The translations under genes were made by a program, and so were the position numbers. This document shows, piece by piece, positions 6,138-8,639 of a stretch of DNA of 15,000 nt (its first letter is position 1; every line of letters starts with the position of its first letter). The DNA is from Actinidia chinensis (lineage: Eukaryota > Streptophyta > Magnoliopsida > Ericales > Actinidiaceae): contig CM018894.1 of assembly GCA_009663005.1 (NCBI GenBank), forward strand, positions 359,979 through 374,978. Direction: 5' to 3'. The notes beneath the pieces were generated by a model, which did not search any database, was not told where the DNA came from, and saw only the letters and a program-made list of their open reading frames with translations.

Positions 6138-6148
6138 TATATAAATAG
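6138..6148 (+). promoter_or_regulatory. TATA box of the plus-strand (antisense to gag-pol) transcription unit
   Basis: TATATAAATAG is a near-ideal plant TATA box. A start site would fall near 6170 (CATGCACTATTCACA), followed by a GA-rich leader (about 6193-6207). It points toward the plus-strand extra ORF at 6879. It could alternatively be the promoter of a plus-oriented LTR. Confidence 0.6.
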
Positions 6149-6341
6149 ATGGCTCTCTCCCATGCACTATTCACATTATGTTTGAGAGAATTGTAGAGAG
6201 AGAGAGAAACTGTGAGAGCTTGAGAATTGACCCCGCCCGACTATTGCTTCTGAAGCCGATTCAGTTACTGATTGTCCTATTTTGTCTTTTAACGACTGCC
6301 TAGTCTTTCAACCATTTTTTGGCCATCTTTATGCTGATATT

Positions 6342-6875
6342 GTAAGTTTTCCTTTTTTAGAAATTTCTTGCAATACTTGTGCTTTTTTGCATTTGCTTTT
6401 TCATTCTATTTTAACCCATCTGGTTTGCATTTTGTTCCCATAATTCTGAATTTTTTGCTTCTATGAATGTTGACTGTTTGTTAGACTCTGTCTATGAACT
6501 ACATGTCTTCAAGATTTTGTGGTCCTAGGGACTTAGGTTGTCCCTGTGTCTATTTCCCCTGATGAAATGGGTCCCAAACATGCTTGTAGTTTAATATGGA
6601 TTTCTGAAGGCCCAATTACGCCAAAATTTTGCCTTCTAGAGTTAGGGTTATGTTGAAATTTTGCCTTTTAGAGTTATGGTTTTGCCCCCCTCAAGTTATT
6701 CTTTCACTGGGAGAGCTTCGAGATGGAAGGACAGATTGAGAGTTGATCCAAGACAGATTGAGAGTTGATCCTCATGTGACAGACTTTGGAGTTCATGTAG
6801 AGATCGGCTAGCGATGCATCCCAATGTAATCCTACTAAGGTTGAGCTTGTTTTGATTGCTGTGTTTGTATTTCAG
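6342..6875 (+). other. Candidate leader intron of the antisense extra ORF
   Basis: The donor is ATT|GTAAGTTTTCC at 6342 and the acceptor is TTTGTATTTCAG|AAT ending at 6875, 3 bases before the presumed ATG at 6879. The interior is T-rich, as plant introns are, especially 6342-6480. No transcript evidence is available. Confidence 0.45.
6624..6687 (+). repeat. 32-bp tandem duplication
   Basis: AAATTTTGCCTTCTAGAGTT and the following bases (6624-6655) are repeated with few changes at 6656-6687. The duplication lies in the candidate leader intron, next to a C6 tract that on the minus strand would be a candidate polypurine tract. Confidence 0.85.
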
Positions 6876-7437
6876 AATATGGAGTTGAACCGAGCTCAAC
6901 GCTTAGTCCATGATTATGCCGCAATGGCCTAGTTTAGGAGTGACCATGACATTCCTAATGATGTATTGATAGAAAAACCTTGCGCCAACTAGGAGGCTGC
7001 CATAGTGCAAGGAGATGGGGATCGCATCTCAGTCCGCACATGGCTAATCCATCAGGCTGGACTCTGGTTCCTAATCAGTCCAACTCTAAAGGAGGTCATG
7101 GCGCTCTACCACCTTACCTTTATACAAGTGTCAATAAACTTTGTTTTAACCATGCTTGCGGTAGACACATTAGTACAGAAGGAAGGGCTATAATTTGGCG
7201 TCTATGACCTGCTGCATGTTTATACAGTGATACCCAAAGAAAGAACTCGATACTGACTTGCACATTGCCAACCACTACCTCTGACTTCATAACAACCGAC
7301 CCCCCTAGATGTGACAAAGATCTCGGACAAAGATTTGTACCTTGATGAATTTGTCTTGGTCTAGGGTAATTGGGAGTTCCGAGCCGAGTATGATGGCATA
7401 TGGTCATTCCCTATGCGCAACAGTAGAATACTTGATA

Positions 7438-7548
7438 GTAAGTTCTTTTTGTACCTTGATTGTGTTGATTTCTTACTACACTTTTATAAATTTTTGTTTG
7501 AACATATTGTTGATATCTAACGGTTGCATCTCGATTGATTTGTCTTAG
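7438..7548 (+). other. Candidate intron, 111 bp, in the antisense extra ORF
   Basis: The donor is GATA|GTAAGTTC and the acceptor GATTTGTCTTAG|AG, with a T-rich interior and a TTGAT branch-like word about 15 bases before the acceptor. It begins just after the GNWEFRA block, where coding resemblance stops. The length and composition are typical of short plant introns. Confidence 0.5.
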
Positions 7549-7829
7549 AGTTCAATAGCTGATTCCACTAAAGGACTGAGTGGCACAGCAAGGCTATCAA
7601 GCCGTGAACGATAGCCAAGCACCTTGAGACGCAAAAATGCTTCTATAGTATGAGCCTATCTATCGCTATACAATACCCTATAGTGTAATGTAGCTCGGTT
7701 AGGTCAAACTTCTGCCACTTTGCATCCGGGAACCTACACCTTAACACTATCGTTCTAGCCCAAACGACGTCAGTGAAGAAGTTGAGGTTATTATTGACAG
7801 CCTTACGATCATGTAGAATGTGCAATTAA

Positions 7830-7907
7830 GTATCTAAGCTTGGCTGATTTATTACTTTTTGTATTTCTTGGACACTTAGAAGTTTTTGTTCTGAACATGT
7901 CTTGTAG
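7830..7907 (+). other. Candidate intron, 78 bp, in the antisense extra ORF
   Basis: The donor is AA|GTATCTAAG and the acceptor ACATGTCTTGTAG|GCC, with an alternative AG at 7879. The interior is T-rich. The coiled-coil-like reading frame opens directly after the acceptor. Confidence 0.4.
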
Positions 7908-8639
7908 GCCCTTTAGAAGTCAATATAGAACCTCTGAGTGCCTTCAAAAAATGTTCTAACAAGCTGAAGAAAGCCAACGCTTTAGAGGGTGAGCAAAAGC
8001 TTGTTTTTGCAAATACAGCTCTCTCCGAGGAGCACAAGTCCCTGCCTTGGTTACTACTGTTGTAAGGGAAGAGGTAACCTTTTCTTGTGATGCAATGGAC
8101 AAGCCTCAACAATAGTTAGTCGAGCTCCAAAAGGTGGCACAAGACCTTATCTACCAGCAAGTCTTCGACCGCGGCTAGAACAAGGGCTAAGTTGCATTGT
8201 GTCCGTGAGGTAGCACAAATGCGCCCAAATATATTTTGCGAAGGCTGGTTTGCGTGTCTTAAGAAGCTCGAAACTTCTCCTTATCATCCCTTATGGATAG
8301 CAATGAAACCTCCAAAAGCTCTCCCAAACCTTCCCAAGCCGTACTTGCCAATCCTCCTCCCGAGCTTCAACGAAGAGGAATATCCAACCAGGAGGTAGAG
8401 AAGAATGAAGCTGAAGATGGCGGGGTCGAGGTGGAAGATGTCGAGGCACCAAAGGTGCTAGGGGTAGGAGTTAAGACAGACCGAGATGAGGGAGATCTTC
8501 CAAACATCCCCTGAGGTGTAAAATGCTTTATTGCATTACAAGGAGGATGATCTTTTGAGTTTTTGAAAATATTCCCTTTTTAGTACAGCCTATGAACAGT
8601 TCAAAATATTTTATATAAAGAGTTTCATTCCCCAACTCA

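Follow-up and report, generated by a model that had tools for sequence, protein, structure and literature searches.

The 15,000-nt stretch analysed here (positions 359979-374978, hereafter the window) carries on its minus strand a decayed and broken LTR retrotransposon of the Tat/Retand type. Facing it on the plus strand is what is very probably the remnant of an accessory gene of that lineage, one with introns and subject to splicing, lying antisense to gag-pol between the integrase and the 3' LTR; this reading rests on comparison with other copies in the same genome. A plus-strand ORF opposite gag-pol, three intron-like segments and a TATA box had been noted in a preliminary description of the window, and all of them are present in the sequence. 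The features are as follows.

About 3790-5440: by direct reading, a second stretch of gag-protease.
5705-5712, minus strand: TATATATA, read from the sequence as a candidate TATA box for the LTR promoter in the sense (gag-pol) direction.
5933-6045, plus strand: duplicated upstream element (CACATG at 5933-5938, CACGTG at 6040-6045), read from the sequence.
6138-6147, plus strand: TATA box of the antisense gene, its ATAAATA core kept in copies.
6170-6341, plus strand: exon 1, 5' untranslated, its start placed from the TATA box.
6342-6875, plus strand: intron 1, a 5' UTR intron (GTAAGT...CAG), with borders shared with copies.
6876-7437, plus strand: exon 2, with an ATG at 6879 and a TRP28-like N-terminal part, recognised by codon periodicity and homologs P0001-P0010.
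7438-7548, plus strand: intron 2 (GTAAGT...TTAG), phase 1, with conserved borders and no periodicity.
7549-7825, plus strand: exon 3, its start shared with Actinidia rufa gene models.
7826-7907, plus strand: intron 3, GTAA/AG in copies, the donor GT mutated to TT in the window copy.
7908-8514, plus strand: exon 4, a coiled-coil-like, acidic C-terminal part, frameshifted in the window, with a P0015 tblastn match at the exon start.
8946-9157, no strand assigned: tandem array separating the antisense gene from the integrase end, its 4 units spaced by about 50-56 bp.
About 9540-9670, minus strand: by direct reading, GPYKIIKL...LRPWN, presumably the C-terminal end of integrase.
About 10280-10400, minus strand: presumably a protease remnant of the same element, read beside the DTGSS stretch to which it is homologous in the left copy.

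The window copy of the antisense gene is dead, since exon 2 contains six in-frame stops. About 700 bp are also absent from exon 3, between about 7731 and 7783, where the copies at L005, L012 and L020 have 673-708 bp extra; the missing stretch is where relatives carry a basic stretch.

The segments first proposed as introns (6342-6875, 7438-7548 and 7830-7907) have T fractions of 0.40, 0.50 and 0.47, against 0.23-0.27 in exons 2-4. They had been credited with good donor and acceptor signals, and GTAAGT does stand at 6342 and 7438. The donor scores, however, were not outstanding: 9 of the 132 GTs in the region scored above the donor at 6342, 8 above that at 7438 and 50 above that at 7830, and among 172 AGs the acceptors at 6875, 7548 and 7907 were exceeded by 1, 7 and 16. 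Splice-site scores alone were set aside as not decisive, and because the donor scores are unremarkable, the case for introns rests on comparison with copies.

Copies were sought with positions 6138-8514 across the 638 Mb assembly (1499 contigs), giving at least 52 matches when the best 40 of 136 candidates were scored. They are old (66-77% identity) and fragmentary, and lie on many contigs. Exon 2 and intron 2 were aligned in 21 copies and the window; L038 and L048, in which the sequence after intron 2 is unrelated (L038 also has N), were dropped before counting, leaving 20 rows. Outside the alignment were L016/L043 (one place), L036 and L046, with the end of exon 2 or the following part deleted or unrelated, as well as L027, L037 and the short loci L015 and L018. 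For codon positions 1, 2 and 3 of exon 2, mean pairwise identity was 0.643, 0.751 and 0.535, respectively, a difference reached by none of 10,000 shuffles; relative to the window, divergence was lowest at position 2 in 21/21 copies and highest at position 3 in 20/21. Identity by phase in intron 2, over the same rows, was 0.551, 0.582 and 0.527, i.e., without codon periodicity, and its length ranged from 69 to 119 nt with every remainder modulo 3 represented. The gap fraction was 0.021 in exon 2, 0.115 in intron 2 and 0.013 at the start of exon 3.

At the borders of intron 2, GT was found in 16 of the 20 rows and AG in 14. Ranked by conservation among the 111 columns of the intron, the donor G is 22nd and its T 1st, and the acceptor A is 12th and its G 27th. 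The four rows lacking GT and the six lacking AG are as expected of decayed copies, yet lost borders are no proof of decay. No aligned row lacked intron 2. Conserved splice borders were therefore found together with non-coding drift. A coding pattern was found for exon 2 but not for the first 91 bases of exon 3 (0.605/0.480/0.494), a result that counts against the spliced-gene reading.

Introns 1 and 3 were compared in fewer copies. The sequence from the promoter is alignable up to about 6206; the intron 1 donor at 6342 is GTAAGT, GTAAAT or GTGAGT in 6/8 alignable copies, a count that omits L049 and L013, which could not be aligned, and L027, which was misaligned. L052, another copy of the antisense gene, has GTAGTT there, as judged by eye. 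At the acceptor that precedes the ATG, 19 of 22 rows have letters, and 14 of these 19 read AG. For intron 3, ten of 27 loci had a recognisable flank: the homologous donor at 7826 is GTAA in eight of these and TT (7826-7827) in the window, and the acceptor is AG in eight and also in the window. Of the six splice sites originally proposed, that at 7830 was consequently off by four bases, and the others were kept; the GT at 7830 might at best substitute as the donor of the window copy. Alignment of the candidate introns across copies of the same genome, the check that had been suggested, thus found shared borders for introns 1, 2 and 3, and supports the retention of introns across copies that had been claimed.

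The promoter was compared in the same way. Its ATAAATA core is intact in 11 of 12 promoter blocks, with the window counted and a misaligned L027 row removed; L051 deviates. The G-box-type duplication described upstream exists in the window as the CACATG/CACGTG pair, and 5 of the 11 promoter blocks examined have CACGTG. The candidate sense TATA box lies about 440 bp from the antisense one. A loose pattern located a sense TATA in the window, L035, L036, L052 and L013 at a distance of 437-447 bp from the antisense one, and in L041 at 399 bp; it located none in the remaining 5 of the 11 promoter blocks. The stretch between the two may be a two-way promoter. As far as within-genome comparison reaches, an own promoter and an intron architecture are both supported: by the promoter core, the coding constraint on exon 2, the length drift of intron 2, the borders of introns 2 and 3 and the presence of intron 2 in every aligned row.

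The LTR block (5441-6226) is a chimera of two families with its junction at about 5686. A genome search with 5440-6240 returned, among the best 40 of 294 places, the window itself, 32 places ending at or before 5687 and seven beginning at or after 5685, and it is this division that identifies the block as a junction of two families. It would join the U3 of one family to the R-U5-leader-gag of another near the sense start. The switch lies near the expected start of sense transcription, a pattern to be expected from template switching in R or from a nested insertion.

The element itself has lost most of pol: RT is absent, and the protease and integrase ends are left. The preliminary description had placed the antisense gene between the integrase end and the LTR; the integrase end is indeed present at about 9540-9670, albeit with most of pol gone and a chimeric LTR block. 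The long region between pol and the 3' LTR, with an antisense ORF and often tandem repeats, is a trait of Retand/Tat elements, and the tandem array is matched in several genome copies. The order of antisense gene, tandem array and integrase end in the window recurs, whole or in part, in copies. In 16 of 20 loci taken with wide flanks, other element sequence surrounds the antisense gene, and five of the 20 (L035, L037, L040, L042 and L046) continue to the integrase end in the same order; in the remaining four (L034, L038, L039 and L050) no other element sequence was found by DNA match. This context favours a gene of the element over cargo.

Several further observations concern the surroundings. 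In the window (9529-10701) and L046 (7053-8248), which are about 72% identical there, protease is followed directly by the integrase end, RT, RNase H and most of integrase being absent; this arrangement suggests an old non-autonomous sub-lineage. At 3640-3790 a short LTR-like end is followed by TGGTATCAGAGC, a primer site of the initiator-tRNA type, and the whole is possibly a TRIM-like insertion. A further retrotransposon gag-like ORF lies on the plus strand at 13632-13901 (flanks about 11700-15000), its match to PF03732 (E 0.11) being under the cut-off. A 173-nt direct repeat of 95% identity occupies 1913-2085 and 2236-2408, with starts 323 nt apart. A search of viral contigs gave one chance match and afterwards none.

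If the introns are real, the copies could still have multiplied by DNA duplication and not by reverse transcription. The copies, old and fragmentary as they are, have no LTR pairs or target-site duplications that could be examined, which suits that explanation; their spread over many contigs, the element sequence in 16/20 wide loci and the continuity to the integrase end in five of them argue against it, and it is considered improbable.

The protein relatives bear on whether the gene is split at all. Ten proteins (P0001-P0010) were hit by exon 2, at 54-67% identity, and all named relatives are from Actinidia rufa. Twenty-seven A. rufa gene models are 250 aa or longer, and in 12 of them exon 3 begins at the same FN-x-x-FK stretch (the pattern gave 13 hits, P0016 matching elsewhere); 15 do not show this start, and several of the 12 differ in the preceding residues. 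As gene predictions, P0042 continues in frame from exon 2 into exon 3, and in P0015, P0026, P0027 and P0038 an MQ..Q run precedes the junction of exon 3 with exon 4. An author-made, basic nuclear-signal-like pattern matches 8/27 of the models.

P0020, an ENA protein, continues into intron 2. This would fit a single continuous antisense ORF, now decayed, in which the T-rich segments are mutated coding sequence or linkers. Every copy examined in detail is decayed, and antisense ORFs of Retand elements are usually drawn as continuous, the available text of PMC11963269 describing ORFs with introns unmentioned. However, intron 2 is aperiodic, occurs in all modulo-3 remainders with about five times the gaps of exon 2, and has conserved GTRAGT and AG borders, as intron 3 likewise has conserved borders. 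A continuous ORF is accordingly thought still less probable than DNA duplication.

A search against PF04195 had been suggested. Pfam had no hits for pieces of the window; among 41 related proteins, PF04195 matched six at E values up to 0.1 and was the sole family touching more than one, its best match (E 0.018, 15.7 bits) falling under the cut-off of 26.2 bits. AlphaFold models of two exon-2 proteins had mean pLDDT values of 53 and 65, and a Foldseek search of the PDB with the second model only gave a best E of 2.4, so no particular fold is claimed. Pieces of the antisense gene are fused to host domains (Peptidase S28, AAR2, PX and protein kinase) in the A. rufa models P0011, P0014, P0029 and P0043; these are probably annotation artefacts and possibly exonised copies.

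Least probable of all is the suggestion in the preliminary description of a host-like gene as cargo, which would have been acquired together with its introns, for although the promoter and introns are host-like and the introns suggest entry other than as spliced mRNA, no host homolog could be recognised in three protein searches, hits bearing the names of host genes appear to be fused models, and the domain, weakly matched as PF04195, is described as element-borne in the available text of PMC11963269. Together with the element sequence around most copies, these points make the antisense gene look like an element gene and not host cargo.

The best explanation for these observations is the spliced accessory gene of a Tat/Retand-lineage element. 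Transcription would begin at a TATA promoter located within the 3' LTR or next to it and proceed back into the element. From the resulting mRNA the 5' UTR intron and two coding introns would be spliced out, so that the TRP28-like exon 2 is joined to exon 3 and then to the coiled-coil exon 4. In the sense genomic RNA the introns would read as reverse complements, and because they are reversed relative to it, splicing of that RNA would leave them in place, so that antisense-oriented introns would pass through reverse transcription. We infer that the mRNA was made and spliced and that the copies arose by reverse transcription; the product may have regulated the element from within the nucleus, a role proposed for such ORFs in the available text of PMC11963269 and PMC7264820.

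Antisense ORFs and promoters are already known in Retand elements. The TRP28 (PF04195) ORFs in the available text of PMC11963269 share with the window gene the antisense orientation, the position between pol and the 3' LTR, tandem repeats and, by weak resemblance, a TRP28-like domain, and are found in flowering plants including Ericales, as is the window gene; no similarity to the domain is reported there outside transposable elements. They are drawn without introns, whereas exon 2 in the window ends at a conserved donor and is followed by two more exons; the word 'intron' occurs 0 times in the main text. The same text places the TRP28 domain in ORFs of less than 600 nt in five clusters (three from Sambucus, two from Camellia), as might be the case if the gene were split. 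A search of the open literature found no description of introns in Retand antisense ORFs; papers on Grande gene23 and by Steinbauerova et al. beyond that scope could mention them. Maize gene23 of Grande, as described in the available text of PMC7264820, is likewise antisense between pol and the 3' LTR, with its own promoter and a nuclear product, a likeness of description. Ogre and EVADE are named in the available part of a recent review (PMC12786077) as notable exceptions among plant LTR elements, which are generally without introns; their introns are in the sense genomic RNA, whereas those of the window gene are antisense to it.

HTLV-1 HBZ offers an analogy of arrangement only, with no sequence relation and no kinship claimed. 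HBZ mRNA is spliced. Named in the available text of PMC11963269, HBZ would resemble the window gene in its antisense start from the 3' LTR side, its splicing and its role as a nuclear regulator.

Elements that copy through RNA are expected to lose introns. The present observations suggest that introns can survive RNA-based copying when the gene points against the element genome, and an antisense gene with surviving introns would parallel, in nature, the intron trick on which retrotransposition reporters rely. The finding bears on questions left open in the available texts of PMC7264820 and PMC11963269, namely the origin of these genes, where the presence of introns speaks against acquisition of an mRNA that had already been spliced, and whether the several antisense ORFs of an element represent independent genes or parts of a single split gene. 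A wider proposal, tentative and somewhat doubtful, is that a single spliced gene underlies all Retand antisense ORFs, TRP28 as well as the separate coiled-coil or Smc-like ORFs being its exons, and that its introns persist through retrotransposition solely by virtue of their antisense orientation. If this is true, the Retand lineage would consist of retroelements that naturally carry introns, and export of the antisense mRNA in spliced form could separate it from the sense RNA and from double-stranded-RNA silencing.
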